A stretch of 64,000 nucleotides of DNA from Halichondria panicea (Eukaryota > Porifera > Demospongiae > Suberitida > Halichondriidae), in contig NC_087377.1 of assembly GCF_963675165.1 (NCBI RefSeq), positions 7,333,122 to 7,397,121 on the forward strand. The letters run 5' to 3'. Under the pieces are notes generated by a model that saw nothing but the letters and a program-made list of their open reading frames with translations, did no database searches and was not told where the DNA came from. Shown piece by piece: positions 3,623 through 63,311 of the stretch. Within the stretch, counting starts at the first letter, position 1, and every line of letters starts with the position of its first letter. A program made the position numbers and the translations under genes.

Positions 3623-4476
3623 AATCTTCCACTCCGCCAACTTCTCCACCTAATTCTGAGAGCATCACTGTCACTAAACTATCAAATGGAAGTGCTGAAG
3701 TGACCTGCACTACCACTGGCCAGAGTTGTCTGGCGTTGTTTCAATCTAAAACCTCTCTTGATCCGATGGTGATGATTGGTTTTATTGAACCACCTAATGA
3801 CAGAACCACTGTCACTCTTAATGCCACTTCCGATGTTTATGTGGTAGTGTACACTTGGAACAGTGATTCTGGTGAGACCACCTTTGATGGGAAGGTATCC
3901 TTCATTAGTCAATTGGAGCTACGAACTAGTAAGCCAAGAGTTAGTTTCAGTTTCAGAATTGTATGCGCTCGTTCTTGCTCTTGCAGGTCCTCCCCCTACA
4001 CAATCACCTCCTGATACTATATACTGGATCTCCAGTTCCATCGCCCATGATAGTACTAATAGCAGGTGAATGGTGCATGGCAATTTATGGCTGGCTGCAT
4101 GTGTACATTGTATTTTGTCTCTTATAAAGGTATCATAACCGTGGTCGTGGTACTGCTTCCCCTGGTAGTCACCATAGCTATTGTTGTGTAGCCGTGGTTA
4201 TTGTGAAGAGAAAACAAAGAGGTGATATCAATTAGTTAAATTTTTTTCATGTCACTTCTTCTCAACACAGTTGAGGTTCCAGAGTCAGATGGAAGAGTGG
4301 ATTGGTCATCAACATTTGCAGGAATTGAGCAGCCCAACGAAGCTTATGCTCCAGTACTGACGAGGAACATTGCTTATGAGCAGATAAAGAAACCAAGGGG
4401 ACAAAGGATCGATGACTCACAAACCCCGGCAACAAGAGAGGGACAGTATGAAAGCATTGAGCCAGTTCATGAATAA
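3623..4476 (+). pseudogene. Receptor copy A, type II, 3' exons only
   Basis: Only the membrane-proximal exons remain: domain 5 (3623-3928, frame intact, TWNSDSGETTFDGKVSF), stalk (3987-4065), transmembrane exon (from about 4130) and cytoplasmic exon (4271-4476). Two lesions are seen. In the membrane exon about five extra bases compared with copy E shift the frame and give an early TAG. In the tail one inserted base turns HEYEDV into a stop after VHE. Exons 1-6 are absent, replaced by LTR-retrotransposon sequence. The tail carries the IAYEQI version of the second tyrosine motif. Confidence 0.85.
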
Positions 4477-4573
4477 CGAGGATGTGTTGCCTCAGGGAAA
4501 AGCAAGTTGTGCAAATTATGTTAACGTTAACTGACAGATTTCCACATTTATTTTTATCGCACACATTTGTATA

Positions 4574-4724
4574 CCGTATAGCGGGAAATTTTCGTCGGTG
4601 CACATTTTCACTATTTGCATGGCTATACAGAGCCCTCAGCAGAAATTTTCATGGGTTTTAGTATTCGCGTTTCAATGCCAGCTAGGAAACTACACCCACC
4701 AACAGCTTTGCATGTGAAATACCA
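4574..4724 (+). mobile_element. M1 MITE, truncated at its right end
   Basis: Begins TA-CCGTATAGCGGGAAATTTTCG like the full copy at 19271-19485 and shares its interior (gagccctcagc, ccacacccaccaa-like, gctttgcatgtgaaatacc). The right third with the second inverted repeat is missing. Confidence 0.75.
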
Positions 4725-4867
4725 TATTGTTAGTGGCCCTGTAATTAGAAGTAACTGTAACTGTGTATGATCGAATGTGCTTGGTTTGATCTACATGTAT
4801 TGTGCATTGTACGTACTTCACCAGAATGGACAACTGAAACACACACACAATAATATTTACACCTTAA

Positions 4868-7636: not shown

Positions 7637-10600
7637 ATGGACAAGAGTTTGACATCATTCACTTTCTTTTTTGTGATAGGGTCATTCATCATAGCTGTAA
7701 AAGGTAAGTTAATTTAGCAGTAAAGTTATCAATATATTCGGCCGTCTCTAAAAATCAGACGCTTACAAAACAACTTGCTGCAACTCCAGGCTTAGAGATA
7801 CTATACTATAATTATATAATTATATATATTCTAGCTACTGAAAGAGGTTTGATCATAATCCGAAGTGTCAGCTGTTAACCTCAATTGTTTAACGCTGCCA
7901 CTTTTTGCTGACAAAGCGATTATACTGGCATCTGTATAGCACCTACACATAGAGCCTAGCCTTTCTACTTTTTTTTAATTAGCCATAGTAGTTTTTAACT
8001 AAGTGGTGTTGAACACATGGTATAATTTATAGTCAAGTTCTCAATATGGGCACCATTTGTGAAAAAACTACGATCGAGGAGATACTACCGTACGTACTCG
8101 CCTTGCCTCTTAATGCTCATAATTGTATAAAACAAAGGAAGAAGCATGCAAAAAGGCCACGGCAAAATAGACTCAGAAAAAGTGCTGAATTAACATGATT
8201 GGATTGCATCCGGTTTTTCCGTCATAATTAGACAAATCATGCTATCTCACAGCACTTTTCTTAGTCAATTTTTCCTATGCTTTTGCCTTTGATTCTGAGC
8301 ATCGTATGCATGAGGCATGGCGGGTACCCCATAGGTCTAGAAAGTCATAGTTGGGCGTGGCCCCACCCTAAACGCGAACGTAGGTGGGGCCACGCCCAAC
8401 TGAGAAAGTCATAGCAAAGCTTATAGAAATTTTCGCAACAGTCTAGTCGGCAATAGGTGTTGCAAACGTAATTGATTATTGAATGTTTGAACCACCGACT
8501 TTAAGCTGCTGCTGTGCACGAGTAAAGCTACCAGATTACTTCTAATTGTGGTAGGCACAATACCTGATCATTGTCTATTTTTGCATACAATGAAGATAGC
8601 TCTTAGTGTCTCTCCCTAAAAATGCGTGTCACTTGGCTTACTCTAGCATGATGCATTGGACACTGTACAAGTCAAATTGCATACTACACATTCCCACTTG
8701 CATATAGTCTGTAGACATACTTCACATACATAATTATGTAGTTTATTGTTAATTGTTGTATTAACCATTATTTTGGCATATCCGATTTTTGCTGTTCCAG
8801 TAATTACTGTATGCCTAGCTACTCGACTTTTATTTACGTTGTATATATAATTATACCGTATAGCAGGTATATTTCAAGGGTATAAACCTTCGCGGAATGA
8901 CCGTTATAATTTTTGCGGAATAGCATCATTTCTGTAGCATGCATGCATGCATGCGATATTAAATTCGTGGGTATAAATGTTCGCGGTACATGCTTAATCA
9001 GTGAAAACCACGAACATTTATACCCTCGAAATATACCCGTTATAGCTATACGGTGTGTCACTACTTATGGGCGAGTTTTATGCAGTAAACATCTAGCTAG
9101 CAATCCGTGCCAAACCAAATGGCCGGTATTGAGGTGGTTATACTTCAAAGAGCTGAATGTCTATACTCTACATGTTTCTTACAGCTCAGTTCACAGTACA
9201 GCCATTGTCAGTGCTGGAGAGAGCCGAGGGACTGGAGGCAGTGTTCAGTTGTCAGTATCAAGCCGAGGGATTAACTGTCACTTATGACTGGGCAATAAAC
9301 AATTCCTTAGTCTCCACAGATACAGACACTGTTAGAGTACGTCGACCTTCATCTCCTGGTGGACCAACCACAATGACAATCTTGGCTACTCCGCAGCACA
9401 ACAACTCTGTTGTGTATTGTGAGGCTGGTATCAGAAATGGCTCTGATCGTACATTTGAGATTTCACTCACAGCATCTCTAGTTGTTCATGGTGAGTCAAT
9501 ATCTTGATTGTCTTGGCATAATTTGTCCTTCTTTTATTACATTAGAGACGGTCCTCACTCATCTTATTTTTGTATCAAATACCATCACCGTGATGTGGAA
9601 TGCTCTACCCCTCACGGAGTACTGTGTGGATATCACCAAGACAACTCTGGACTCCACTGAAACAGTTGTTCTTGATTCTGTGTGTGGACTGGCTAATGAG
9701 TACATCTTCACGTACTCCAACCCCATCAGTGTGTGTGACAGATTCTCCTTCACTGTGACTCCTACTGAAGGAGAGATGAGGGGAACAACCAGTGAATCAG
9801 TTACGGGGTTCTTTACGAGGGCAGAAGGTGTGTATGGTGCACTCTAACATACACACGCTGCTTGTTACACTTCTACATTGTGCAGGTAGTATTGAAGAAC
9901 CACATCGTATTCGTGAAAGTGGGGAAAATAAGTCAGTAGGGTTTAAAGCCACTGTGAGTAATTTTATAGTTGGTGAGATATACACATGCATACTAACGTT
10001 CTCCAGATACCCAGTTGTACAAGATTCACTTGGTATCGTGTTGACTCTGACTACTTATTGACTCCCTCCACCAGCCTTCCAATCACAGACCCTCTTCTGT
10101 TTGATGGCTCACTCAGTTTCTCCCTCCCCACTGACAAGATGACAGAATACAGTGTCACACTGACTGATGAGAATGGAATAGACCTCGTGTTTGAGAACAT
10201 TAAAATCAGTGAGCGGCTCAGCCTATCATGCATGTGTATACTTTGAGCTAATAATTAATTATTCACTCAGGTACATTTGATGTTCAAGGAGTCCTAGTGT
10301 TTGAATGTCCTGGTGGTGGTTGTATTAGTGCGAGCATAGAGTATGTTGAAGGTACCCTCTCTCCCGGAGCTCTCGTCTGTGTGATACGTATCATTGATGG
10401 AGAGTTGGATTTTACTAACACAAAAGTAATGACAATACCTCGTAGCAGGAGTGACAATTTCACAATATTAGCTGTTCCCAGTGGAAACTACGGAGTGATT
10501 ACGTTTGATCTTGAATGCAATTCTCTGCCGAGAATGCCCATCTCAATTGCAGCTGACAGCAGGAATATATCTATTACGGTGTCCTCCGAAGATGGAGGTA

Positions 10601-11515
10601 TTTTTGTACATGCGCATGCATAGTTTCACTTGTCCTATTCATTTTGTAGGACAACCTCCCAGTAGTGAGGGCGTTTCTGCCACAAAGCTGCCAAACGGAG
10701 ATGCACAAGTGACTTGTGCTGACTCTGATGTCGTTTGTCTTGTTTTGTTTCAGTCTACCATCAGTATCGACAGAGTTTTAGTTGCTCTCATTGACTCATT
10801 TGCGAGTTCAACGAGCTTCTCTGTCAGTGACACTTTTGCTAATGGCCATGTTATAGTCTACTCTTGGAATAGCTCACAGTCTATCTTCGACGGGAAGGTA
10901 TCACTCACTAGACAACTCAATCCACCAATAAGTGAGTGCATTTGGTAGCTCATTTTCAACAGTTTACTGTGTTGTGTATATACAGGTGCACCTTCTACTT
11001 TGTCTCCTACCGATCCCACACCTGTTACTGGGTCCCAATTTCCATTGGCCACTGGAGTAATAGCTGGTAAGCGAATAGTATTAAATGTTTAGCTAAAATT
11101 ACACCTATATAATTATAATAGGGATAACTGTGGTGGTGATTCTGCTATTGCTTGTAGTCATTGTTGTTGGAGCAAGCATCATTGTAATTTGTATAAAAAA
11201 AAGAAAAAATATGCAGAATAAAGGTAAATAAGTCATGCACGTTGCTAGATACAAATACATTGACCTTGATGCGCAGTAACTATTCAAGCTCCCGAGTCAG
11301 GTGGACAAGTGGATTGGTGCTCAACGTTTCCAGGAATTGAGCAGCCCAACGAAGCTTATGCTCCAGTATTCAAGAGGAACATTGCTTATGAGCAAACAAA
11401 GAAACCACGGGGACAGAGAATCGATGACTCACAAGCCCCGGCAACAACAGAAGGAGAGTATGAGAGCATTGAGCCAGTTCATGAGTATGAGGATGTGCTC
11501 CCGAAAACTAGTTAA
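7637..11515 (+). CDS. Receptor B: intact type I Ig/FN3 membrane receptor with tyrosine tail
   Basis: Ten exons: 7637-7703, 9185-9490, 9546-9827, 9886-9953, 10007-10208, 10271-10597, 10650-10931, 10986-11066, 11122-11223, 11277-11515. All have GT-AG borders and compatible phases, giving 1956 nt and 651 aa. Order: signal peptide (MDKSLTSFTFFFVIGSF), Ig-like domain (C45, W58, C101), FN3-like domain (about 125-218), domain 3 (219-308), domain 4 (309-417), domain 5 (418-511), Ser/Thr/Pro stalk, transmembrane helix (about 540-562, VVVILLLLVVIVVG), basic stop-transfer KKRK and tail. Tail tyrosines: Y600 (EAYAPV), Y610 (IAYEQT), Y634 (YESI), Y643 (YEDVL). Predicted cell-surface receptor; ligand unknown. 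Exon 1 is assigned by its match to C and I and by phase; a 1.5-kb first intron holds MITEs. Confidence 0.87.
8350..8400. repeat. Hairpin with 18-bp GC-rich arms
   Basis: gttgggcgtggccccacc at 8350-8367 is matched by its exact reverse complement at 8383-8400, with a 15-base loop. It lies in intron 1 of B and resembles the ends of the element at 43122-43430 (gggcgtggccc), so it may be a minimal fold-back transposon. Confidence 0.8.
8856..9053. mobile_element. M1-related MITE in intron 1 of receptor B
   Basis: Termini ccgtatagcaggtatattt and its near reverse complement, ending ctatacgg. The interior has a second inverted layer (cgaacatttataccctcgaaa against ggtataaatgttcg). About 198 bp, TA on the left flank. 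Confidence 0.7.
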
Positions 11516-15633: not shown

Positions 15634-18600
15634 ATGGACAAGGGTTTGACATCTTTCACTTTTCTTTTTATGGCAGGGTCATTCATCATAGCTGTAAAAG
15701 GTAAGGCTATTATGTTACATTGGCAGTACACTTATAAATTTCAGAATACTGCTGCATACAAAATAATGTTGCCACAAGAATACTATTCTGCATGTAGATC
15801 GTATACCGAGTTTCGAATGCCTAATTAGTCAATTGGGAACGACATTGTATAAGCCTGGATACTATTGGAAATTGCACGTGCAGCATGCTATAATTGTATG
15901 CTCCTTGCGAATCAGATCACTCTTTCCTTTGCAACCGCTATATACTAATTATATGCAGCCAGAGATTGTGACTCATAATTATAGTCCAGCATGTGATGCT
16001 CCTCTGCATGCATCAGTACCACCACTATTGGCACACTTTTGGATCCATTTACAGTTGGTTACTGCTAGGGTATACCCCAGCTTATAGTTTTTGTCAGTTT
16101 GTGTGTGCGAGCCTATACTGAATTATTATCTCCCCAGAATCTCGACCCCGGAATATAATTATGACTACCGTATAGCGGGTAATTTTCGTGGGGTAATATT
16201 CGTTATTTTCGTGGGCAGGCTGACCTCCACGAAATTTTATCGTAGGCGTGGCTTATCTGAACGTAGGAATGCCGTGCAGCCACGAGACTAAACGAAATTT
16301 TTACTCACGAAAACTACCGTTTCTCGAGTTGAACGAATTTTTTACCCCACGAAACTTACCCGCTATACGGTATGTACATTAATTGTGTGCTGTCAAATTA
16401 TACTAGTGTGCATTGTACTTTTGAATAAACTGCTGAAACACGTCATGACTGTTACTAATTTAGACAGTGATATCTACTAAACAAGATTGACCTAGCTGAC
16501 TTATAATAATGATTATAGTCTTGATTAAGTACAGTAACTCTGCGTGCTAATATTTTCTCACAGCTCAGTTCACAGTACAGCCATTGTCAATGGAGAGAGC
16601 CGAGGGACTGGAGGCAGTGTTCAGTTGTCAGTATCAAGTGGAGGGATTCTTTGTTACTTATGATTGGGCAATAAACAATACGATAGTCTCAACAGATACA
16701 GAAACTATTAGAGTACGTCCACCTTTATCCCCTGGTGGTCCAACCACACTGATAGTCTTGGCCACTCCGCAGCACAACAACTCTGTTGTTCTGTGCCGTG
16801 CTACAATTAGTAATGGTATTGTTTTTGTAAGGTCTGAATTATCGATCACAGCAACTCTAACTGTTCATGGTGAGTTAGTAACTATATAATGATGTGTATA
16901 AGATTTTGTAGGCATTTCCCTGTAGGAACGGTAATCACTAATGTTTTGACTGCTCCAAATACCATCACTGTGATGTGGAATGCTCTACCTCTCACTGAGT
17001 ATTGTGTGGACATCACCAGGACAACTCTGGACTCGACTGAAACAGTGGTTCTTGATTCTCTGTGTGGACTGGCTAATGAGTACACCTTCACGTACTCCAA
17101 CCCCATCAGTGTGTGTGACAGATTCTCCTTCACTGTGACTCCTACTGAAGGAGAGATGAGGGGAACAACCAGTGAACCAGTTACTGGGTTCTTTACGAGG
17201 GCAGAAGGTGTGTTGTATTGTTACATACACACTTCATACACAATGTATACATAATATTGCAGGCAGTGGAGAACGACGTCGTATTCGTGAAAATGGAGGG
17301 AATAAGTTAGTTGAGTTTGAGGCCACTGTGAGTCATTGTATATATAGTATAAAAGATGCACATGTAACAAAGCTAACGTTCTCCAGATACCAAGTTGCAC
17401 AAGGTTCACTCGGTATAGTGTGAACTCTGACCTATTGACTCCCTCAATCAGTCGTTCAATCACGGACCCTTTGTTTGATGGCTCACTCAGTTTCTCCCTC
17501 CCCACTGACAAGATGATAGAATACAGTGTCACACTGACTGATGAGAATGGAATAGACCTCGTGTTTGGGAACATTTCAATCAGTGAGTTCAATGAGGCGT
17601 GTTCAGATGTTTATTACGACTCCCTTCTTAGGTACATTTGACGTTCAAGACCTGCTAGTGTCTGAATGTCCTGGTGGCGGTGGTATTTGTGTGAGCATTG
17701 AGTATGTTGAAGGTACTATCTCTCCCGGAGCTCTCGTCTGTGCAGTTCATATCATTGATGAAATCCTTGATTTTGCTAACGTGAAACTGGTCACCATCCC
17801 TCGGAATTCTATCGAGAATTTCACCATTCCTGTTCGTAGCGGAGAATACAAAGTGATTGCTTTTGATCTGGAGAATACCAAGTTACCAAGAATGCCCATC
17901 TCTATGGTAGCACTGAGTCTGGACATTATAGTGAATTCGACTGGGGAAGGTATGTGCTCTGTGTGTAAATATGCTTTTCTAGTGACTATAGAAAATTTAT
18001 AGGAACCAGTCCACCACCCAGTGAAGTCGTTAGTGCAACCAACTTATCAAATGGAGATCTTGAGGTGACTTTCTCTGACTCTGCTCGGAATTGTCTAGTT
18101 CTGTTTCAACCCATTTTGGACAGAGTACTACGTGTAGTTGATTTTATCAACACATCTGAAAGCTCTACTGTCGTTGTTGTTCGGAAGGACACCTTTGGTG
18201 ATGGCTATGTGGTGGTGTATTCTTGGAATAGTTCACAGTCCATCTTTGAAGGAGAAGTATCGCTCATTATACAACTGGATCCACCCACCTGTAAGTGCCT
18301 CTGTGGATCAGAGCTAACATCATTCATTGATTTTTCTTTTTTCTATTGCAGCTGCTCCCACTACACCTCCAACGTCTGATCCACAAACAGACCCACCTCC
18401 TCCTGATATGGAGTCCCTGCCAACATCAGTTATCGCTGGTAGGTTTCTAGTGCTGTAAAAGTGTATCATAATGATTCTCTCCATTCACTGTCACAGCAGC
18501 AGCCATAGCTGGTAAGTCAATGTACCTACAGAGCACTGACTAAGTCTATTTGTGTTGAGTTTGACCTTCATAAAGTTGTCATAACTTATGAAGCCATGAT

Positions 18601-19231
18601 TGACCACATAACTTCCGGGGTCGAACTCAACGCTTTTTATATGAGAATATAAGCATGGACACCTCTTAAAAAGGACAACCTCCATATACAATGTTTTAAA
18701 GGCAGCACTCGTACAATAACACATTATTCATCGCAATAGACTTTAGTTTGTAAAATAGCATATTATGACGCAGTTTGTGAATATCTACAGTTTACTTTGA
18801 ATAGGATTCGTACACTCTAATAGTATGGATGCACATTTTTAGGTTTGGTGACTCTGCTATTGCTTGTGGTCACCGCTGTTGGAACTGTCGTAGTGATTTT
18901 AAGAAAACGGAGACAAAATGAAGGTACCTAAATTATTCGTTAACTTGTCTTGAACAATTGACATGCAGTTGAGGTTCCAGAGTCAGATGGAAGAGTGGAT
19001 TGGTCATCAACATTTGCAGGAATTGAGCAGCCTAACGAAGCTTATGCTCCAGTACTGACGAGGAACATTGCCTATGAGCAGACAAAGAAACCACGGAGAC
19101 AGAGGATCGATGACTCACAAGCCCCGGCAACAACAGAGGGACAGTATGAAAGCATTGAGCCAGTTCATGAGTACGAGGATGTGTTGCCTCAGGGAAAAGC
19201 AAGTCGTGCAAATTATGTTAACGTTAACTGA
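15634..19231 (+). CDS. Receptor C: intact type I Ig/FN3 membrane receptor with five-tyrosine tail
   Basis: Eleven exons: 15634-15700, 16564-16869, 16926-17207, 17263-17327, 17387-17582, 17632-17949, 18003-18290, 18352-18438, micro-exon 18497-18511, 18843-18923, 18969-19231; total 1968 nt, 655 aa, all phases agree. Signal peptide MDKGLTSFTFLFMAGSF; Ig-like, FN3-like, domains 3-5; a longer Pro-rich stalk than B; micro-exon AAAIA; transmembrane helix (LVTLLLLVVTAVGTVVVI) followed by RKRRQ; tail with Y594, Y604, Y628 (YESI), Y637 (YEDV) and Y651 (YVNV, a Grb2-SH2-type pYxN motif). Close paralogue of I and, less so, of B. Predicted surface receptor whose tail could bind SH2 proteins when phosphorylated. 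No kinase domain. Confidence 0.87.
16168..16370. mobile_element. M1 MITE in intron 1 of receptor C
   Basis: CCGTATAGCGGGTAATTTTCG...ending CCCGCTATACGG with TA on both sides; 203 bp. The equivalent intron regions of D (about 19800) and I (about 56430) lack it. Confidence 0.85.
18497..18511 (+). other. 15-nt micro-exon of receptor C
   Basis: cagcagccatagctg lies between a good acceptor (tgtcacag) and donor (gtaagt). Five codons in phase 1 add AAAIA just before the membrane helix. The same micro-exon with intact splice sites is kept in I (59955-59969), but no equivalent is seen in B. Confidence 0.65.
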
Positions 19232-19270
19232 CAAATTTACCCACTTATTTTTATCCCACACATTTCTATA

Positions 19271-19485
19271 CCGTATAGCGGGAAATTTTTGCGGTGCACA
19301 TTTTCACTATTTGGCTACAGAGCCCTCAGCATAAATGTTCATGTGTTCTAGTATTTTGCGTTTCAATGCCAGGAAACCACACCCACCAATAGCTTTGCAT
19401 GTGAAATACCGATGCGTGGGAGTTTATTATCCCATTTTCGCGTCTTCTTTTTGCCCTCACCTCACGAAAATTTCCCGCTGTACGG
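19271..19485. mobile_element. M1 MITE, complete copy after receptor C
   Basis: CCGTATAGCGGGAAATTTTTG to TTTCCCGCTGTACGG, TA on both sides, 215 bp. It is the reference copy for the family here. Interior landmarks: gagccctcagca, cacacccaccaa, gctttgcatgtgaaatacc. Confidence 0.85.
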
Positions 19486-19639
19486 TATGCGATTGTACAA
19501 TGTACCATTCTATCAATTTTTACAAAACTTACATTTACATATGTATTCTTAGTGTGGATTGTGTTATTATATGTAATATTTACCAGCCCCTCTGATTATA
19601 GATGAGTGCATTGCTAATTTACTTCTACATAGCTTGGCA

Positions 19640-21706: not shown

Positions 21707-22168
21707 AACTTTCCCACACAGTTGTTTGACGGTATACAATGTATCTACCCATCTTTGTACAAAACTGAAAATGAAAGTTATAATTGTACACAGGAGTGCA
21801 TCATAACATGATTCTACTGTCTTACTATTGTGATCTTTAATTAAAATTTAATACTAAATCTAGAATGTGATTCATTTTTCTACTACATAGCTAGCTTGGC
21901 ACACCTATGCTTTGATGGATGATTACACTAGTTTGACATTTCTTCTATTTGTGGGGACGTTCACCATAGCTGTAAAAGGTACGTAAGTAGCTATGCATGG
22001 TCTAGGCATAATTATTTTGCTATTCCTGGTCCAGAAATGCATGGTGATACTCTTGCTATTTTATAGGCTATTGCTTTGTTTGTTACCACAATTATCCAGA
22101 GATTGGCTGCATGTATAATGTGTTTGACCGTATTATCTAATGGCTTACATTTGTGGTTAGTGTAGATA

Positions 22169-22430: not shown

Positions 22431-22465
22431 TACTGAATGGGGGCTCATATAGTTGTATTTCTCCA

Positions 22466-22512
22466 CCCACACCACACCACACCACACACCTCACACACAC
22501 ACACACACCCAC
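22466..22512. repeat. CCACA/CA simple repeat
   Basis: ccacacc units grade into (ca)n. Ordinary microsatellite in intron 1 of E. Confidence 0.8.
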
Positions 22513-47945: not shown

Positions 47946-47959
47946 AAATTCTAGCTACT

Positions 47960-48762: not shown

Positions 48763-48950
48763 ATGTGATTACACTAGTTTGACATTCCTTCTGCTTGCAA
48801 TTGCAGGGACATTCACTGTAGCTGTAAAAGGTAAGTTAGCTATGCATGGTCTCTAGGCATTATTTTGCTATTCTGCAATTAGGTCCCAACATCACCTTGT
48901 GTTTGTAATGTTACCATAATTATTCAGAGATTGTGGCTGTAATGATAGTA

Positions 48951-49102
48951 CCGTAAAAACTCGATTTAAAGCGACACTTTTAAATAATTACGTTTTGGCA
49001 AAAGTAAAGTTTTAATGTACACAAAAAATTATATGGTGCTATATGGGCGAAATGTCCAAGTGTCGCTTATTTAGAGGGTCGCCTTAAATCGAGGATTTAC
49101 GG
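48951..49102. mobile_element. M4 MITE abutting an M1 MITE
   Basis: ccgtaaaaactcgatttaaag to ccttaaatcgaggatttacgg, TA at both sides, 152 bp. Its right TA (49103-49104) is also the left TA of an M1 copy at 49105-49345, so one element inserted exactly at the edge of the other. Both lie in intron 1 of H. Confidence 0.8.
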
Positions 49103-49104
49103 TA

Positions 49105-49345
49105 CCGTATAGCGGGAAATATTCATGGGGTGCAAAAATTTCCTGTATAAGTTTACGCGAAAATAAACTGGGAGACTTGATCTCCCACGCACCGGTATTT
49201 CACATGCAAAGCTCTTGGTGGGTGCATGCATGGGTTTCCTGGATTGAAATGCAAATATTAGAACCCATGAACATTAATTTCTGCTGAGGTCTCTAGGGCC
49301 AAAATAATAGCGAAAGTTTACACCAGCAAAATTTTCCCGCTATAC
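49105..49345. mobile_element. M1 MITE in intron 1 of H, reverse orientation
   Basis: ccgtatagcgggaaatattca on the left, attttcccgctatacg on the right. Same site and orientation as the M1 copy in intron 1 of E, so it is inherited with the type II 5' half. Confidence 0.75.
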
Positions 49346-52300
49346 GACAATGGCTCACAATTTGTGGCCAGTGTATATAGATACGTTACAATACCGTCTT
49401 TCTTCTAATTACAGTACCACCCTAATTAAGAAGCGCGCCAGCCACCAATTGAGCGGCAATGGAATTATATTTTGTGGGGCTTATATAATATGTAATTATT
49501 AGAAAGAAATAAAACGGCCTAAAATCAATAATCCCTAAATTATAATTCATACATTTAACTCATTATAACCTTGTTGCACGGCTACTATCACTCTACATTC
49601 TAACGTCCAATTACACTAGCACCACTCCAATAAGTATAAGTGCCAAACTAGCTATTTGTGTGCGCGCCATGCACTGTAAACCACAATTGTGTCGCTGCAA
49701 TTAGAAGAAAAACGATAGATCTAGTTAGACCGTATAATATCAAAATAGATCTATTGTGCCTAAATGGACAACTGAAAGTAACACAGAAATTTGTTTATAA
49801 TTATCATTTTTACACTTAATAAGAAGACTATATTTACCCCTATCTAAGGTAGTAATCATGATGTACAGTATATATAGGCACTTTCTGTCTGCCTAGTACC
49901 TTATAGTCTATAGTGTATATATACTGATCACACAGCCCAACAGTTTACAATTGAGCCTGAGTCAGTGGTATACAAGCCGAGGGATTATTGGCAGAGTTTA
50001 AGTGCCTGTCTCCTGGAGCACTAGCTCACCCTTGGTTCGTGGATGGCATTGAGTCTACAAGCCCTAACACTTCATCTGAAATCAGAGTAGCTGGAGGTAT
50101 TTCAGGTCGTCCCTCAGTGCTGACCATCCCAGCCAGTTTACAGTTCAACAACAGTGTCATTCCGTGTCTCGCAGCTTCAGTGAGTAGTGTAGTGTTCTCA
50201 AGGAATGCAACATTGATAGTTGGTGAGTTGTAGATAATTATTTGTAGAGAGTACACCTATAGACACGGTTGCCTTAATTTAATGAGGCCTTTTTTCAGAG
50301 CGTGTATCTATTGAAGTGGTGAATAGTGAAACCCACCTTGCTGTCTCTGTGACGAATAACTTCACTCTGAATAATGTTACCTATCGTGTGGACATCTCGC
50401 TTACTGCTCTGGGCACCAATGAGATGGTTGCACTTCCTCCTCTAAATGGGGTAACAAATCAAGCACAGTTTAATTTCGGATACCCTAACCACACTGTCTG
50501 TGATATATTCACCTTCATTGTGACTAATTAGTGAGTCAGGAATAGAAGGAAGAGATCCAGTGAACCTGCAGTCCCTGCATGGGTTTTTCCTACGAGTATA
50601 ACAGGTACTGCAGTACATTTTGTATATTGATATTTTGCACTCAGCTCTGTGTTCTTCCACGTACAGGTGATAGCATTGCCCCACTCATCAGCCGGAATGA
50701 AGATGTGTTGATGAAAATTGTGACTTTCATTGATGCGGTAACTGGAACTTCACCATTATAGTATTAATGCTCCATTTTGCAGGTGCCTAACTGCCGCAAC
50801 TTCACTCATTACCGAATAGACTCAGCTGCTTTGCCAAGTCCCATCACTGAGATCATACAATACCCGCTGACTGTGCTGAGTTTCCCTCTTCCCTCTGACA
50901 TAATAACCAATGTCACTGTCACACTTACTGCACTGGGGGGTGGAACTGATATTCCAAAACATAGCAATACGTACGCCATAATAATTATTGGAACAATAAT
51001 TATAATGGCTAATTGTGCATGTTTTATCCTTGTAGGAACAACTGATGTTCAAAATTTGACAGTGAACATTTGCCCTGAAGGAAACTGTATTAGTGTGAGC
51101 ATTGTGTATGTTGAAGGTATACCCTCTCTCCCGGAGCTCTTGTCTGTGTGATACGTATCACTGATGGAGAGTTGGATTTTGGTAGCATAAAAGTAATTAC
51201 CATACCTCATAGCAGGAGTGACAATTTCACAATATTAGCTGTTCCCAGTGGAAACTACAGAGTGATTACGAACGCAATTTTCTGCCGAGAATGCCCATCT
51301 CAATAGCAGCTAACAGCAGGGACATATCTGTTACGGTGTCCTCAGGAGATGGAGGTATTTCTGTACATGTATATATTTATTTATATACATGTATTTCTGA
51401 TTATGTGTTTATATAGTGTCACTTGTCCTATTTATTTTGTATATAGGACAACCTCCCAGTTGTGAAGGCGTTTCTGTCACAAAGTTGCCAAATGGAGATG
51501 CGCAAGTGACTTAATTGTGCTGACTCTGATGTCGTTTGTCTTGTTTTGTTTCAGTCTACCATCAACAATCTCGACAGAATTTTAGTTGCTCTCATTGACT
51601 CATTTGCAAGTTCAACGACCTTCTTTGTCAGTGACACCTTTGCTAATGGCCATGTGATAGTCTACTCTTGGAATAGCTCACAATCCATCTTCGACGGGAA
51701 GGTATCAATCATTAGGCAACTCAATCCACCAACAAGTATAAGCGTATTTGGTAGCTCATTTTCATACTGTTTACTGTGTTGTGTATACACAGGTGCACCT
51801 TCTACTTTGTCTCCTACCGATCCCACACCTGTTACTGGGTCCCAATTTCCATTGCCCGGAGTAATAGCTGGTAAAGCGAATAGTATTAAATGTGTAGCTA
51901 AAATACACCTATATAATTTATAATAGGGATAACTGTGGTGGTGATTCTGCTATTGCTTGTAGTCATTGTTGTTGGAGCAGGCATTGTAATTTGTATTATA
52001 AAAAAAAAGAAAAAAGATGCAGAATGAAGGTAAATAATGTCAATGCACGTTGCTAGATACAAATACATTGACCTTGATAAGCAGTAACTATTTAAGCTCC
52101 CGAGTCAGATGGACAAGTGGATTGGTGCTCAACGTTTCCAGGAATTGAGCAGCCCAATGAAGCTTATGCTCCAGTACTCAAAAAGAACATTGCTTATGAG
52201 CAAATAAAGAAACCACGGAGACAGAGGATTGATAACTCACAAGCCCCGGCAACAATAGAGGGAGAGTATGAGAGCATTGAGCCAGTTCATGAGTACGAGG

Positions 52301-53784
52301 ATGTGCTCCCGAAAACTAATTGATTTTATATCTCAACAGTTTTGACTTTACAAAACTAGATTTAGATGGGCATGGCCCGTCCTCCATTATTAAGTTGCTT
52401 TATTCATTATTTTGTGGTCACAATCTTTTGTAGACAATTGCAAACCATGCAGGTACCGTATAGCGGGGAATTTTTGCCGGGGAAAGTTTTTTTGCTATTT
52501 TGGCTCCAGAGCCATCAGTAGAAATCTCAGTAGAAATGTTCATAGGATCTAATATTCGCGGTTCATTGCCAGGAGACCACACCCACCAATAAGCTTTGCA
52601 TGTGAAATATCGGTGCGTGGGAGTTTATCCTAGTTTTAATTTTCTGCCCTCGAAAAACGAAAACCTTCCACCTCACGAAAATTTCTCGCATATGCATGGA
52701 TAACTAGATAATACACTAATGAATATAGTTCGAACAAATTCGTAGATCGAGGCTAGAAGACTGTATGAGCTTTGACTTCCTATATATACTTAATTCACCA
52801 TGAGATATAATTATGCATGTACTATTAATAATTATTATACACAATACTCCAGCACTTTTAAAGCCTCTCGCCATGTTTTTGCTTTCACTCTGGCATTTGC
52901 TGAGCAGCTGTCATTTGTTGTGAAGTAACTTTTAAGTGCTGCCTTATAGGGAAGTGGGAGATGTTCATGCTTATATTTGTACATGTACTTTTGTACATGT
53001 ACTCAAATGGGAATACATTCACTTTGTTGACACAAGGGTATGAGTACTAAAAGCTAACGTTGTTGTCATACTTGCAATGTTATTGCATACTAAAGTGCAG
53101 TACAGGAATGACCTTATGAGAAGAAGTGCGGCCTTGGATCAAGGCTATACATGTAGTTAATACACTTCAACTGCATCCCATTGAATGCACTTCACAACAA
53201 TAAAATCGCAAAACCTGCTGCACACGATCCTTGCCAGAACGCAAATAGTTAGATTGCAAAAGATCAATTTTTCTGCTGATTTGGCTCATTCGCAAAGGTT
53301 TTTTCACCAGCAAACATTTTAGTAATCGGTATAATTAATATTACCACTGCTTGTCTTTTCATTAGTTGACATAATTATGGCTATTTCTTTGTATCAATTC
53401 CTTTTTTAGTAACGGCAATAAAGCTGTTGTGTACGATGTTTGTTTTTAGTTTGACTAATTTATAGTCGTCCAAACTAAAGATGAATGTTTATACACATTC
53501 TCTATTGAGTGCACTTTTTCTATACATGGTTGTGGTTGTCATAGTAGTTTCGTAAACTGGTCAGCTAGAATGCATTCTTGTATTTGATGATACTGTCAAT
53601 GACAACGTGCAATTACTGGACCGGATGTGATACGGGATTAATTGCTGTACACTCTCCAGTTGCTAATAGTACATCATACGATTATAGTAATAATGGATCA
53701 GCATACAGACAATTTTTACAATAATAATTACATTTTATGACATGGGAGGAGAGTGGGATAACGATAAACGTTCAGTTAACGAGC

Positions 53785-55296: not shown

Positions 55297-56018
55297 CCTA
55301 TAACTTATTGAGGCTGCATGGCTTTAATATAAAAGTAGACTAGATAATATATCTACTGTCGTTCAGTAAAGGTGAGTGATCTGAAGGGGGGTATGGGTGT
55401 AGATTGTGTTGTAGCTGTTGCCATGCATAGATATGGCTAGATCTAGTCTAGACTGATCTATCAGGTATTAAAACTAGACCTATGTACATTGTAGATCTGT
55501 TAGAAATCATATCTATCATAAATCATATCTATGATTAAATCTTCCACATAGCTTCATGCTCTGATGGACAAGAGTTTGACATCTTTCACTTTTCTTTTCA
55601 TGGCAGGGTCATTCATCATAGCTGTAAAAGGTAAGGCTATTATGTTACATCGGCAGTACATTTTAATTTTAATAATACTGCTGCATACAAAATTTAAATG
55701 TTGCCACAATGGATAGATTGTATACCGAGTTTCGAGTGCCTAATTAGTCAATTGGGAACGACATTGTATAAACCTGGATACTATTGGGAATTGCACGTGC
55801 AGCATGCTAATATGTATGCTCCTTAATTGCGAGTCAGATCACTCTTTCGTTTGCAACCGCTATAATTATACATAATTATATATGCAGCCGGAGATTGTGA
55901 CTCATAATTATAGTCCAGCATGCTCCTCTGCATGAGTACCACCACTATTGGCACACTTTTGATCCATTTACAGTTAGTTGCTGCTAGGGTACCTCGGCTT
56001 ACCAGTGTGTGTGTGTGA

Positions 56019-56390
56019 GCCTATATAATAGTTGTAGGCCCGAAGGCCCAAAGCTGTAGTATCCCGAGCGTAGTGAGGGTGCTATACGTATACTAAGGGC
56101 CTGAACTGATTTAGAATAGTGAAGCTAGACTACGTTAACACAAAGAAGACTCTGAAACCAAGAGTTTCTACAAGCCTCAAGCAACGTTAAAGCTTCGCTC
56201 TGGCTAGTCTACATAAAAAAACTTGAAGGCAGTTAATTTCCGTCTCTTGAGAATCATGCATAGCAAAAACTGTAGGCATAATCAGTATAATAGACCTATA
56301 CTTAGAAGACCTCTGACAGCTATTGAGAGGTCTATAAGTAAAATAATGGACCTCTCAGTGACCAATCAGTATTACTACAAGCATTTTCTA
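56019..56390 (+). repeat. Insertion in intron 1 of I, R-type repeat
   Basis: C and D read gcctatactgaattatt; in I about 370 bp lie between cctata and ctgaatt. The insert starts near gttgtaggcccgaaggcccaa and includes gtttctacaagcctcaagcaacg, related to the body of the R1 and R2 repeats. Confidence 0.65.
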
Positions 56391-57239
56391 AACTGAATTA
56401 TTATCTCTCCAGAATCTCAACCCCGAAAAATGTGACCATGTAAATCTGTACATAATAAAATTGTGTGCTGCCAAATTACTGTAATATTGATATCTAGTAA
56501 AAAAGATAGGCTCGTACTATTGATTAACTACAGTAACCCATAACGACGTCTGGTGCTAATATTTTCTCACAGCTCAGTTCACAGCACAGCCAGTGTCAGT
56601 GGAGAGAGCCGAGGGACTGGAGGCAGTGTTCAGTTGTCAGTATCAAGAGGAGGGATTGACTGTTACTTACGAGTGGTTTCTAAACAATTCAATAGTCGGA
56701 GACAGTACAGAAACTGTTAGAACACTTCGACGTACTGGTGAACCAACCACACTGATAATATTGGCCACTCCACAGCACAACAACTCTACTGTGTACTGTG
56801 AGGCTACAATCAGAAATGGCTCTAATCGTCCATTTGAGATTTCATCCACAGCATCTCTAGTTGTTCGTGGTGAGTTAATATCTTGGTTGCCTTGGCATAA
56901 TTAAATTTTGTCCTTCTTTTATTACATTAGAGACGATCCTCACTCCCTTTATTATTGCACCGAATACCATCACTGTGATATGGAATGCTCTACCTCTCAC
57001 TGAGTATTGTGTGGACATCAACACGACAGCTCTGGACTTCACTGAAACAGTTGTTATCGATTCTCTGTGTGGATTAACTAATGAGTACATCTTCATGTAC
57101 TCTGATAACAGTGTGTGTGCCAGATTCACTGTGACTCCTACTGATGGAGAGATGAGGGGAACAACCAGTGAATTATGTACTGGGTTATTTACGAGGGCAG
57201 AAGGTGTGTCTTTACCATAATAGTATTCACATTAGTTGT

Positions 57240-57659
57240 TAGCCTCCTTCACCGGCCTTCAAGCGAAAAGAAGGCCTGCTACTGACTGCTTGCGCATGCG
57301 CGAAATTATTGGATATATTTTCCCGTAAAATTCCCTATAATACTGAATAATACTGAATTTATCACGAAAATATCCTGACAAAGTATTGAAAGTCATACAC
57401 AGAGCTATTATAGCTAGCTAGCTAGAGACAGAGCTGTAGGTTTGTTGTACAGCTATTTTCTTTCTGATAGTGTCAGTAGCAGTAGTATAGTAGACTTTTC
57501 ACCAAGTTAGTATTTGATGGGCGTGGGCTGTCCATATAGGCTCTTGTCAGCTTTCACTCTGTTCAGACGATTGTCATCCACACTGTTGCTGGTTGTGAGT
57601 CTTTTGTTATGCCTCGAGGCGTAGCCGCACGAGGGATACGGTAAAGCTGACTGTGTGTG

Positions 57660-57698
<39 letters not shown>

Positions 57699-58684
57699 GT
57701 GTGTGTGTGTGTATTCCAGCTATAACTGCTCAACGGTTGTAATGTAACGAAAACTAACAGCTTCTATAGGCTTCTAGCCACGTTCTCTTGGATTTTGATT
57801 CGTGGATTAGCAAACTAAAGCTTCTTTCTCGAGTTATGGCTAGTTTGACTCACATTGAAGGCTGTTGCAGTCTCTTCAGAATCTTTCATAGCATCATCTG
57901 TCCGCACAAACTTTCTATTCAACATATGAGTTAGCCTTGCACTAAAGCGCTAGCTTTTTGTTAGCTACAATACTCAGAAAATATCTTTTAAAACAGCTAG
58001 CTAGCAGTAGCCATTTGTGAAATTGATCTCTTTGGACACACCCTTTAATTATTCCTGTGGATGTAATGCGCATGCGCGCTCATTCCCCATGTGTGAGAAA
58101 ATAATATCCCAAGATCCTCCTGGCAGAATCATCTTTGTCTTGAGGGCCTGGTATATAAGCCACAAAACACTACCATATAACAATATAGATAACAATATGC
58201 ATGTACACAGGTCTTTTCTTCTTAGATATTATATACACTGAACTACAGATCCTGGAAGAATCAATTTTCTTCTTTCTTGAGATCCTGGTAAGCCACATAA
58301 TACAACAATAGATGCATGTAAATAAGTCTTTTCTTCTCAGTGACTTTATATAGATAAGCTAACTTTAATACTAATATAACACTCTAATACTTTTAAGCGA
58401 AAGCAAAAACATGGCGAGAGGCATTAGCACAGCGCCAGCTTGAACACTAGTTAACATAGTAGGCTAAGGGTAGCTATCAGAATACTATCAGATGGGCTAG
58501 AAACCTTCAATGGAACCTTCTATCTACTTCCTTTAATCCACTTCCGTTTGTTGTGACGTCACTGTTTTACTGACCATAAACGTTGTTATCCGGATTCGCC
58601 AGATACCGGCGGAAGATTAGCGCATGCGCAAGCAGTCGATACCAGGCCCACTCTTCGAGGAAATGCGGCCTGGGATCGAGGCTA
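57240..58684. mobile_element. 1.4-kb Mutator-like insertion in intron 3 of I, 9-bp target duplication
   Basis: Direct repeats attagttgt (57231-57239 and 58685-58693) flank a segment starting tagcctccttcaccggcc and ending ggcctgggatcgaggcta. The ends pair for about 60 bp, including gactgcttgcgcatgcgc near the inner edge. Most of the interior is an R1 repeat (57607-58455). The intron in C is only 55 bp. No transposase is present, so it is non-autonomous. Confidence 0.85.
57607..58455 (+). repeat. R1 repeat inside the Mutator-like insertion
   Basis: Matches 36681-37545 from the cctcgaggcgtagccg head through the aatgcgcatgcgcgctcatt region to ggcattagcacagcgccagc. The microsatellite (ctgt)n at 57662-57700 is longer than in the other copies. 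Confidence 0.8.
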
Positions 58685-60190
58685 ATTAGTTGTTAGTATT
58701 ACACTTCTATAATATTATGCAGGTAGTGGAGAACAGCATCGTATTCTTGTTACTAAAAGGTAGTCAAATTTAGATCAACTGTGAGTGATTCGATTTTAGT
58801 TGTTCGCTAGGTTGTTATGTGAATGCATTTTGAGTTCTCTCTAATATTCTAGGTTCCAAGTTGCACAAGGTTCACTCGGTATCGTGTGGACTCTGACCTA
58901 TTGACTCCCTCAATCAGCCGTTCAATCACGGACCCTCTTCTGTTTGATGGCTCACTCAGTTTCTCCCTCCCCACTGACAAGATGACAGAATACAGTGTCA
59001 CACTGACTGATGAGAATGGAATAGATCTCGTGTTTGAGAATCAGTGAGTTTAATAGTACGTCTTCCTTTGCTAATTATTTGATCCCCAGGTACATTTGAC
59101 GTTCAAGACCTCCTAGTGTCTGAATGTCCTGGTGGTGGTGGTATTTGTGTGAGCATTGTGTATGTTGAAGATACCCTCTCTCCCGGAGCTCTCGTCTGTG
59201 CAGTTCGTATCATTGATGGAGTGTTTGATTTTGCTAATATGAAACTGGTTTCCATCCCTCGGCATTATATTGAGAATTTCACCATTCCTGTTTCTAGTGG
59301 AGAATACCGAGTGATTGCTTTTGATCTGGAGAGCAACCATTTACCAAACATGCCCATCTCTATGGTAGCACTCAGTCAAGACATTATGAAAATGAACACT
59401 AGTGTTGAAGGTACCTGCTCTGTGTGTTATTGCTGTGCTCTAATCTTAGTCATTTACCGTAGACATTACCAGTCCACCACCCAGAGAGGGCATTAGTGCA
59501 TCCAATTTAACGAATGGAGATGTTAGTGTGACCTGCTCCAACTCTGCCCTGAATTGTCTAGTCTTGTTCCAATCCACCACCATCTTGGACAGAGTATCTG
59601 TTGGTTTCATCACCGCATCTGAAGTATCAACTGTCCTCTCTTTAAATGACACCCTTGGTGATGGCTATGTGGTGGTGTACTCTTGGAATAGTTCACAGTC
59701 CATCTTTGAAGGGAAGGTATCACTCATTATGCAACAACTGGATCTACTCACCAGTAAGTGCCTCTGTAGATTATCAGAGCTAACATAATTCATTGCTTTT
59801 TCGTTGCAGCTGGTCCCACTATACCTCCAATGTCTGATTCACAAACAGACCCACCTCCTCCTGATATGGAGTCCCTGCTGACATCAGTTATCGCTGGTAG
59901 GTTTCTAGTGCTGTAAAAGTGTATCATAATGATTCTCTCCATTCACTGTCACAGCAGCAGCTATAGCTGGTAAGTCAATCTACAGAGCACTGACTAGTTT
60001 AATATATATAATAATTATTTGCTATTGTTATAATGCTAGAAAAATATAGTGATACCTTTGCTGTTTATAACGGAGATATTGGGCCACCGTTTTCAATCAC
60101 AGCGCTCCACTCCAATTGAGCACCAAGCGGAATTATTTTTTACTGGCACTTAGAGAGAAATTATAGCTTGGCCTAAAATCGAGGCTATAG

Positions 60191-60417: not shown

Positions 60418-61270
60418 CTATACGTACAAATGAACAATCAGGTGGCCTTGTGGAACAGCTATATACTATCTTCTATTCCAATGCTATATATAAGCGCCAA
60501 CTATAATTATGTAAAATTATTGTTTTATCTTGTTCTATTTGCGCGTCACTGGAAAATCATCTAATTATTTGTGGCCCTGTAAGTAGAAGTAACTGTAACT
60601 GTGCATGATCAAATGTGCATGGTTTGATCTACATGTATTGTGCATTGTATGTACTTTACCAGAATGGACAACTGAAACACACACATGCACTACTTAATAA
60701 TAGAGGAGTACTATATTTGCTATCAAAGGTATACCCCTCCGGTAGTGATGTACAATAAAAATGTGTACTAGACCTATTACACAGTTCGAAGAGGCTGCAA
60801 GACAGACTTTCATCATGCGTATACATGTAACCTCACTCCAGCACTTCACTACTTTAGTAATTTGCATGACTGTGAATAATGTGTTACTTTACTGAGTGCT
60901 GCCTTAAAAGGAGGTTGTCCTTTTCAGAGGTGTCCATGCTTATATCCTCATATAAAATGATACATGTATACTCAAATGGAATGCATGCTCTTTGTTGACA
61001 CAAGGGTATGAGTACTAAAAGCTAACATTCTTGGTTAATGGACTGCATGTTTTGTTACCCGAGGCGCGCGTGGGCGGCCACGGGTATAGTAGTCTGTTTG
61101 TTTGTAACAATAATATCTACTCACCTGGATGCCATAGCACTGCGTTTACAGCATAGATAGTCTTCACACAACAATATCTTGGTTTAAATAGTGGCAGATT
61201 TTGATGTCTTTGTCGAGTAAAAGCGAGCAAAAGCTAAGAAGCTTAAATTTGCCACGTGGCCTTGAGTCAA

Positions 61271-61345
61271 GGTACGGGATCACTTCAGCTGAAAATATGT
61301 AGTCAAGGCTTGATTACGTATTTTCAGCTGAAGTGATCCCGTACC
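61271..61345. repeat. Hairpin with about 31-bp arms
   Basis: ggtacgggatcacttcagct... at 61271 is repeated in reverse complement ending at 61345, with one mismatch and a loop of about 13 bases. The arm sequence itself belongs to the R3 repeat body (gatcacttc, ggtacggg), so it may reflect two R3 ends meeting head to head. Confidence 0.85.
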
Positions 61346-62895
61346 AGGAACAATTGAATAGGGGAGTAGAATTGTGACTGCACTGGTTGTTGACTGACTC
61401 TGGATCCTATACTCCAGCCTAGAAGGAGCCATACTTCTCTTAGTCTAAGACTCCAGGCTTCTTTGCTGTGATTCCAGTCCATAGTGCATGTCTCATGCAT
61501 GTACGTTGTTAGTTTAGTTTTATTGCTCTTGAGTTGCTGTGCTAGCGCATGCTAGTCATACATGCTACATGCATTGCATTATCACTCTTCTGGTTTCTTT
61601 ATTATCATGTCACCAGCCGAGGGTTTGCACTTTAGTGCTCTAGTTTGGTTTGTCTGTTTGTTTGTTTGTAATTTCAGGATCTGCTCACCTGGCTGCCACA
61701 GCACTGCGTTTATAGCATGGATAGCCTTCACACAATAAGTTATTAGTTTTAACAATAGTAGATTTCGATGTTAGAGCTTGGTTGTCGAATAAAAGCAAGC
61801 AAAAACTAAGAAGCTTAAACTTGCACAATGGCAGCTAGCTAGCTAGCTAACTACACGCGGCCTTTGTTCGAGGTATCCTCCGTATTTACAGCTGAAGTGA
61901 TCCCGTACCAAAAACAGTGGAAAAGGGTCACTACAATAGAAAGTTAGAATTGTGACTTGTTTGTTGCTCTGTTAGCTGACTCCAGGATCCCAGGAGTCAT
62001 ATCATACATGTACTTCTCTGAGACTCCAGGCATCTTTGCTGTGATCCTAGTCCACTGGGCATGCCTCATTACCACTAAAACTCTGTTCTCAATGCATGCC
62101 TCTAGTCTGGTTTAGTTTTATTGCTCCTGCATGAGTTGCTGTGCTAGACAGTTCAGTCATACACCACTACATGCATTGCATTATATCACTCTTCTGGTTT
62201 CTTTATAATCATGTCACTAGCCGAGGGTTTGCACTTCAGTGCTCTAGTTTCCACGTCAGCACAATGCACAGTACATCATAGGGTACAGCTAGGGATGATC
62301 TCACACAAAAGGTTGTGAACAATTGATTCGAGGCTCTAGTTACATACGCTTCAACTGCATCCCATTGAATAGTACATGTGTAGCTTATAATTATGACCAC
62401 AAATCTACTGCTTGTTTTTTCCATTAGCCACTCAAAATCTGTCATCAATTCCTTTTTTAGTCACGGTTTAATAAAGCTGTTGTGTTTGACTATTCTATTT
62501 ATTTATAGTTGTCTAAACTGAACATGAATGTTTATATAATGAGTGCACTTTTCTCATAATTATTATGATTGTGGTTGTTGTTGTCATGGTAGCGTTCTAG
62601 TAAACTGGTCAGCTTAGAATGCATTCTTGTAATGATACTTTTCCAGAGATTGATCAGACAATCTTTTTCATGGCATTTAAACGTACTGGTTAAACGGAGT
62701 TAATCAGGGAGACTCCCATACCCATCGTATAATCCTGCGCATGCGTACCGCTGGTCAGCTTAGAATGCATTCTTGTAATGATTCTTTTCCAGACTTCACA
62801 AAAGAATTTATTAACGTGGACATAATTTAGAGTTAATTACAAATTCGCTAAATTAGTACCCTTTTTCATTATCACTTGTCATATTCCTTTTGTAG

Positions 62896-63311
62896 GACAA
62901 CCGGCCAGTAGTGAGGGTGTTTCTGCCACAAAGCTGCCAAACGGAGATGCATAAGTGACTTGTGCTGACTCTGATGTCGTTTGTCTTGTTTTGTTTCAGT
63001 CTACCATCGCTCTCGACAGAATTCTAGTTGCTCTCATTGACTCAATTGCGAGTTCAACAACCTTCTCTGTCAGCGACACCTTTGCTAATGGCCGTGTGAT
63101 AGTTTACTCTTGGAATAGCTCACAATCCATCTTCGACGGGAAGGTATCACTCATTAGGCAACTCAATCCACCGACAAGTGGGTGTATTTGGTAGCTCATT
63201 TTCATACTGTTTACTGTGTTTTGTGTACAGGTGCACCTTCTACCTTGTCTCCTACCGACCCCCCACCTGTTACTGGGTTCCAATTTCCATTGGTCACAGG
63301 AGTAATAGCTG
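62896..63311 (+). pseudogene. Receptor J: domain 5 and stalk exons of a B-like copy
   Basis: Exon 7 (62896-63177, 282 nt) and stalk exon (63231-63311, 81 nt) have the sizes, phases and splice sites of B. A TAA (62952-62954) replaces the CAA of DAQVTC. Exons 1-6 are not found upstream. A gypsy element fills the next intron, so any membrane and tail exons lie beyond the window. Domain 5 otherwise stays open after the stop (VYSWNSSQSIFDGKVSL). Confidence 0.85.

Follow-up and report, generated by a model that had tools for sequence, protein, structure and literature searches.

The DNA studied here is a stretch of 64,000 nucleotides from the genome of the sponge Halichondria panicea (C1:7333122-7397121; genome size 131 Mb), hereafter called the window, in which a tandem cluster of receptor genes with an immunoglobulin (Ig)-like domain had been predicted from the sequence (the original prediction). 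We found that the window is the middle part of a complex that spans C1:6.910-7.699 Mb (approximately 0.79 Mb) on both strands and runs on far past both window edges, as revealed by whole-genome searches with two RefSeq proteins (P0002 and P0023) and three open reading frames (ORFs) from other contigs (P0030, P0032, and P0034). Common anatomy, clustering, divergence limited to one face of the Ig domain, mosaic genes, and several classes of cytoplasmic tail characterize the family. We consider it probable (about 0.72) that these are type I receptors for recognition at the cell surface, that their V-like face is diversifying, and that the window forms part of their complex.

Extent and anatomy of the complex

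A hand tally of the genome-search matches plus window copy H gave approximately 55 Ig exons in C1:6.912-7.696 Mb, with 30 matches from the main or 'FTVQP' clade (60-80% identity to the query) and 24 from the second or 'FTIEP' clade (at most 44% identity; clade label taken from the cases examined). These counts are lower bounds. A small island of the same family is present at C2:1.56 Mb. RefSeq annotates 21 loci of the family, without names, as 'uncharacterized protein LOC13533...', and all 22 named matches in a search with the copy B protein were H. panicea uncharacterized proteins (the best database match to an earlier 625-residue model of copy B reached 84% over 78%). In a further search with 34 hits, 16 of them nameless, every named hit was likewise from H. 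panicea. Members are 37-85% identical to P0002. We examined in detail 324 kb of DNA around the window, including a contiguous stretch of 264 kb that contains a single run of N (200 bases, C1:7252816). In this DNA, 14 of the 24 RefSeq representatives (P0001-P0024) were covered over at least 98% of their length by exact pieces (such as P0001, 504/504 residues; P0008, 639/639; P0009, 992/993; and P0002, 653/659), and the other ten, which were covered less (324/657 and lower), presumably lie wholly or partly beyond it. More distant clusters of Ig-type exons, mostly 30-48% identical to the queries, were observed at C1:3.44-3.69 Mb and C8:4.48-4.53 Mb.

Gene copies in the window were identified by tblastn with the exons of copy B and refined with exons from both subfamilies, which bore out the ten related copies predicted for this region. 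Three had been considered fully open, namely B, C, and F. Copies B and C are indeed intact, but F lacks several exons, and the third intact gene is instead a minus-strand copy (M, LOC135339430). Copy B (plus strand, 7637..11515) encodes 652 residues through 10 exons with GT-AG borders: signal peptide 7637-7703, Ig 9185-9490, D2 9546-9827, 3b 9886-9953, D3 10007-10208, D4 10271-10597, D5 10650-10931, stalk 10986-11066, transmembrane (TM) 11122-11223, and tail 11277-11515. Copy C (plus strand, 15634..19231) encodes 655 residues through 11 exons, also with GT-AG borders: signal peptide 15634-15700, Ig 16564-16869, D2 16926-17207, 3b 17263-17327, D3 17387-17582, D4 17632-17949, D5 18003-18290, stalk 18352-18438 and 18497-18511, TM 18843-18923, and tail 18969-19231. 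LOC135339233 in RefSeq (P0010, D2 to tail) is copy C, with exact pieces over 509 of 515 residues and D2 and tail pieces that are unique here.

Copy M (minus strand, 34528..29781) belongs to the FTIEP clade. Taking exon limits as the ends of exact residue matches, junction codons excluded, it comprises signal peptide 34528-34445, Ig 34364-34077, D2 34022-33720, 3b 33663-33586, D3 33539-33357, D4 32146-31838, D5 31010-30702, stalk 30641-30555, TM 30469-30347, and end 29834-29781. The LOC135339430 isoforms P0017, P0018, and P0022 match this region exactly over 598/602, 566/567, and 479/480 residues, respectively. A second copy of the minus-strand gene region C1:7366835-7367482, which is perhaps LOC135339659, is located approximately 0.32 Mb off (7689438-7690085) and scored equally or nearly equally with four queries.

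The predicted anatomy of a full copy stands with regard to the signal peptide, Ig-type exon, further ectodomain exons, single hydrophobic helix, and usually tyrosine-rich tail; its 'FN3-like' domain has no Pfam support. Residues C22, W35, and C78 of the Ig domain are invariant in all six window Ig exons compared (of eight, the broken D and E being omitted), and the outer domain can be classed as an Ig fold. Predicted topology suggests a type I single-pass layout with a V-set-like outer domain, for which V- and I-type neighbours tie in Z. The D2 exon of copy B gave no fn3 match in Pfam, and a D2 profile aligned weakly with eight FN3 exons of the same genome (hhalign probability 7%, E 0.005); the structure model of D2 is unreliable, with predicted local distance difference test scores (pLDDT) of 21-42 per ten residues. 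The four domains beyond Ig are probably beta-sandwiches. No kinase domain was matched by Pfam in the seven members scanned.

Divergence of the Ig face, mosaic genes, and block duplication

Ratios of nonsynonymous to synonymous divergence (dN/dS) were calculated from those exons of the DNA examined that had no stop and matched the query over 90% or more of its length; they compare paralogs rather than individuals. Pooled values for the main clade (16 Ig exons) fall from 0.91 in Ig to 0.53 in D2, 0.49 in D3, 0.47 in D4, 0.43 in D5, and 0.37 in the tail. When restricted to the 11 main-clade genes with no detected lesion, Ig shows 0.82 (bootstrap 0.59-1.18), D2, D3, and D4 each 0.51, D5 0.38, and the tail 0.32 (0.17-0.63; nine genes). 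Of 2000 bootstraps, 15 put Ig no higher than the tail, two no higher than D5, and 48 no higher than D4.

The Ig domain diversifies on its GFCC'C'' face, here taken as positions 52-74 and 96-124 of the domain, which cover strands C, C', and C'', a part of D, and strands F and G. In the 11 lesion-free genes, the proportion of nonsynonymous differences (pN) is 0.255 on the face (dN/dS 1.18) vs 0.079 in the rest of the Ig domain (dN/dS 0.42), a gap reached in none of 5000 column shuffles, and the synonymous proportion (pS) is no different (884/5000). Loops by themselves fail to account for this contrast. The same limits applied to the second clade gave pN of 0.174 vs 0.090 and dN/dS of 0.75 vs 0.43 (18/5000), and applied to six ORFs from outside contigs, two of which are close relatives, they gave amino-acid differences of 0.351 vs 0.167 (9/5000). 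Divergence limited in this way is what a surface in contact with a ligand would be expected to show; the comparison does not amount to formally testing for positive selection. A family of homophilic adhesion or tissue-sorting molecules that gained copies with recognition playing no part in selection appears an unlikely explanation. The top Foldseek matches of the whole predicted models are the adhesion-type ectodomains of PTP-mu, contactin-2, and NCAM2 (TM-scores 0.13-0.17 by query), as might be anticipated for adhesion proteins, but one Ig face is fast and the other constrained with no difference in synonymous rate, and the members carry distinct tails.

The genes are also mosaics. By examining pairwise DNA distances per exon in 11 genes (2000 permutations), we found that distances correlate within the 5' half (Ig-D2 r 0.59, 2/2000) and within the 3' half (D4-D5 0.77, D4-tail 0.70, and D5-tail 0.82), with hardly any correlation between the halves (Ig-D4 -0.07, Ig-D5 -0.06, Ig-tail -0.14, and D2-tail -0.08; D2-D5 r 0.19, 191/2000). 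The middle domain D3 correlates with both. One event of the kind behind such mosaic genes can be located by comparing copy C with its duplicate C', in which a recombination switch point lies inside the D2 exon (17001..17200, plus strand, 94% identity here): identity is 83% over 16801-17000 and then 98-100% for 4.2 kb from 17201, and values between 51 and 98% are seen farther upstream. D3 and D4 are identical in the two genes, and the Ig exons show 25.5 nonsynonymous and 11.5 synonymous differences.

C' is part of a larger duplication. Block C-D-E (16496..26388, plus strand) recurs on the same strand 135-138 kb away, between +151.9 and +164 kb counted from window base 1 (the end of the DNA examined). 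The copy is split into three pieces that are 95-98.6% identical to the block, and no run of N separates the two. The duplicate of E (E', LOC135339303, C1:7493677-7496572), approximately 138 kb downstream, is near-identical to E and lacks its stop. This similarity might raise the suspicion that haplotypes left uncollapsed in tandem have inflated the copy number. We regard such an assembly artefact as very improbable, considering that the sole N run of the 264 kb stretch is not between the C-D-E copies, that identity changes abruptly inside an exon, and that most of the intact genes compared differ from one another much more than this.

A different way of combining exons was observed at LOC135339104 (C1:7170154-7206871), where isoforms P0002 and P0005 have ectodomain exons from two tandem copies and one common tail exon, which is located approximately 32 kb from the P0002 ectodomain. 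If these isoforms are real, recognition and signalling halves would be combined at the splicing level.

Cytoplasmic tails, remaining copies, and repeats

Tails were surveyed in 24 proteins (several of them isoforms or fragments), 20 of which have a TM helix scoring above 2.2. Related ectodomains are joined to three tail classes: multi-tyrosine, long with motifs of the form of immunoreceptor tyrosine-based inhibitory motifs (ITIMs), and motif-less. The commonest tail contains three to five YxxI/L/V sites (EAYAPV, GEYESI, HVYEDV, ANYVNV, and variants). Examples in the window are the plus-strand tail exons of copy B (11277..11515; EAYAPV, GEYESI, and HEYEDV) and copy C (18969-19231; as B, plus ANYVNV). 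In P0009, P0011, P0020, and P0023 the tail is long and contains PPxY as well as motifs of ITIM form, such as VIYSEV and VVYVVV; ITIM-form motifs, a matter of motif form only, occur in five of the 24 proteins (these four and P0016). At the end of P0009 there is a Death-domain match just below the Pfam cut-off (21.6 vs 22.6 bits), and the Death family PF00531 is among the precomputed domains of P0023. Copy M, which has a short tail, and P0024 contain no YxxI/L/V motifs. Tails in the window are of the tyrosine and motif-less types, and an exon search found no Death exon there. Where a helix was scored, in 20 proteins, the 21-mers listed for it contain no D, E, K, or R. Tail motifs of these kinds are generally read in terms of SH2, SHP, and Grb2.

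Vertebrate paired-receptor clusters such as LILR/KIR and teleost NITR offer a comparison. Like the sponge set, they combine related ectodomains with alternative tails, include some ITIM-form motifs, and form birth-and-death clusters; unlike them, the sponge proteins examined show no immunoreceptor tyrosine-based activation motifs (ITAMs; 24 proteins) and no charged residues in the TM helices listed, and part of the ITIM-form class has a Death domain. This is a likeness only, and we claim no homology.

Among the remaining plus-strand copies, A, D, G, H, and J survive in broken form or as remnants. Copy A (3625..4503) retains a D5 exon and a tail exon with a stop codon. Copy D (20626..21703) has an Ig exon with a stop and a frame break, a shortened D2 fused to TM sequence, and a tail exon. 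Copy G (40888..41654) consists of Ig, D2, and 3b exons only, and copy J (62872..63351) of a D5 exon with a stop codon and a stalk. Copy H (48767..52320) contains a stop and frame breaks, and its 5' half is of the FTIEP type whereas its D5, TM, and tail are of the B type; a related copy is present at +125.7 to +129.2 kb. Copy E (21915..25846, plus strand; FTIEP clade with a tyrosine tail) has its exons present and had been credited with two point lesions, of which we located one, a stop codon in the Ig exon (splice sites unchecked). Copy F (55564..59996, plus strand) retains signal peptide, Ig, D2, D3, D4, D5, and stalk. A tblastn search did not find its exon 3b, nor did visual inspection of three reading frames across the first 400 bases of the gap. 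The gap holds a repeat also present at 36680-37534, and no TM or tail exon was found between this copy and the window end. The signal-peptide exon is conserved in B, C, E, F, and H, and the minus-strand copy has one of another type.

Several repeats were also observed. A 4.5 kb element across the left edge (window 1-2238) recurs inverted at 65938-70403 from window base 1 with 99% identity, and its open frames are presumably retroelement-like. The frame at 2565-3176, which gave no Pfam match over the cut-off, resembles the end of a Ty3-type integrase, and that at 2220-2483 the end of a hAT transposase. A short interspersed repeat, probably a small non-autonomous element, occurs in both orientations (4572-4723, 11643-11816, 19269-19487, 22170-22417, 49103-49346, and 52454-52628) and, of the six tyrosine tail exons on the plus strand, follows those of copies A, B, C, D, and H within approximately 0.7 kb but not that of E.

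Possible recognition of other sponges or of microbes

Several observations weigh against a complex of recognition receptors with a diversifying face. Pfam Ig matches are under the curated cut-offs (I-set in copy B, 14.3 vs 23.7 bits; the best among seven members, Ig_3 in P0011, 22.0 vs 30), a shortfall that concerns the sequence cut-off and not the definition of the fold. The dN/dS of the whole Ig domain does not exceed 1 (0.82), and its bootstraps overlap those of D2 (127/2000) and D3 (234/2000) and ignore shared ancestry. The predicted excess of Ig over tail divergence is found among paralogs of the main clade, but in the second clade (seven Ig exons) the domains show no such contrast: Ig (0.60) is no faster than its neighbour D2 (0.65) or than D4 (0.79) and D5 (0.68), the last two resting on five exons each, D3 shows 0.41, and only the face contrast is kept. 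The limits of the face were drawn after the column variability of the main clade had been viewed, and, considering the many broken copies, relaxed constraint may be behind part of the change. The two halves of the genes are not wholly independent, with a weak D2-D4 correlation (r 0.32, 54/2000). Among the tails, two of the four long-tail models (P0011 and P0020) gave no Death match, and none of the 24 proteins has an ITAM.

If the recognition reading is right, the receptors would be displayed at the cell surface, where the GFCC'C'' face would contact a variable partner carried by another cell, by a sponge, or by a microbe, and engagement would lead to tyrosine phosphorylation of the tail. Tails with several YxxI/V sites, often including a YVNV site, tails with ITIM-form sites, to which some members add a Death domain, and tails with no motif could then translate the same kind of contact into different, perhaps opposing, outputs. 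New combinations would arise via block duplication and crossover near D2/D3, which would move recognition halves with respect to the halves that hold the stalk and signalling parts, and the V-like face would also be diversified by point change.

Whether the ligand lies on microbes or on the cells of other sponges (allorecognition) is about equally likely, each being a serious candidate that falls somewhat short of even odds. According to the former, the receptors read microbes or symbionts and form a lineage-specific innate family diversified by host-microbe conflict. The dozens of copies in one genome, many of them broken, and the Death-domain tails of some members are consistent with this, and Ig-domain genes (not tied to this family) change on lipopolysaccharide exposure in H. 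panicea (PMC8242945). However, nothing in the sequence is specific to microbes, and sponges discriminate self from non-self grafts too (PMC5450542).

In strict allorecognition, alleles of one or a few genes would decide fusion or rejection, by analogy with Hydractinia Alr1/Alr2. We find this as conceivable as the microbial reading or nearly so. It may be supported by the face-limited diversification, by the large linked interval with many broken copies, resembling the Hydractinia allorecognition complex (ARC; PMC11067881), and by sequences from outside the reference genome. Sixteen further ORFs (P0025-P0040) were identified in non-RefSeq contigs; P0039 was set aside (25% identity, 16% coverage), leaving 15, of which 12 have the source 'ncbi' and three 'ena'. 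Four 'ncbi' ORFs covering Ig and D2 have best full-length matches in the whole genome of only 69-87% (P0029 87%, P0030 80%, P0034 69-71%, and P0035 75%). P0032 ('ena') is 100% identical to C1:7197109-7197732, and P0028 ('ena') is 87% identical to RefSeq P0024 over 222 residues, with differences that by eye fall in an intron-like linker. Within the 324 kb examined and the RefSeq proteins, P0026 ('ena') has no close match (best 85% over 125 residues), and the other outside ORFs reach at best 84% over 157 residues (P0027), the rest lower. The outside contigs, 0.9-17 kb in size, fit a fragmented assembly of one Danish individual (N50 3084; PMC8994243). These data hint at a high difference between individuals at the complex. 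Against this, the contigs have no stated source organism, and single pieces match better (for P0034, up to 83% over 78 Ig residues; for P0030, 90% in its D2 part). The control, a single-frame FN3-repeat gene (L035) that is itself one of a family, was mixed: from similar small contigs, P0043 matches the genome at 96% and P0042 at only 73%. The L035 family consists of single open frames of 1353-1580 codons with FN3 matches (C8:1.92, 2.76, 2.79, and 5.25 Mb; C11:2.20 Mb), and its named database relatives are 'Lar-like' and 'titin-like'.

Among sponge proteins, the Ig-domain proteins of Geodia cydonium are reportedly polymorphic. Sponge aggregation factors are secreted proteoglycan cores, not type I receptors, and none of their domains is among the Pfam matches of the seven members. 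They are connected with sponge cell recognition, as the present family may be, and are polymorphic according to a title cited in PMC5450542. The Geodia proteins include a receptor tyrosine kinase with an Ig-like domain on the surface (PMC12018476) and an Ig-containing adhesion molecule (PMC11999971), but the H. panicea family differs in having no kinase match, another architecture, and dozens of clustered copies.

The likeness to clustered recognition complexes of the immunoglobulin superfamily (IgSF), here in a sponge, holds up. In organisation, the closest working parallel is the Hydractinia ARC, which contains single-pass IgSF proteins at no fewer than 41 loci with many pseudogenes (PMC11067881), and Podocoryna provides a comparison for complexes of this type (PMC13119343). 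As in Hydractinia, where linked clusters of single-pass IgSF receptors have V-set and I-set type domains and many pseudogenes (PMC11999971), members and broken copies occupy one interval (plus the small C2 island). In contrast, the sponge belongs to another phylum, its members are more alike than the Alr proteins with their 'low overall sequence identity', and its genes have four further ectodomain modules and, in some tails, a Death domain.

Tentatively, and with more doubt than the two ligand readings, we suggest a sponge histocompatibility complex that is functionally parallel to the Hydractinia ARC and evolved independently. Its Ig face would serve as an allotypic label or reader, crossover cassettes would link newly formed recognition halves with signalling halves that stay conserved, and tails including the ITIM-form and Death types could convert mismatch to rejection or cell death. 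To our knowledge, no recognition locus has been established for sponges, though non-self grafts are rejected. Among the open-licence papers listed for sponge IgSF or recognition loci, a set with most subscription papers outside it, none describes the complex to judge by title and start of abstract. A paper on the immune repertoire of H. panicea (PMC8242945) covers SRCR, NLR, GPCR, and cytokine-receptor-like sets; its main text uses neither the word 'allorecognition' nor the term 'death domain'.

A single linked interval, V-like diversification on one face, and signalling-type tails make self and non-self recognition in this sponge, which has a chromosome-level assembly, a question open to genotyping and a fusion experiment. 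Were the recognition reading correct, sponges would be one more lineage in which V-like Ig receptors with ITIM-form tails came to form clusters.

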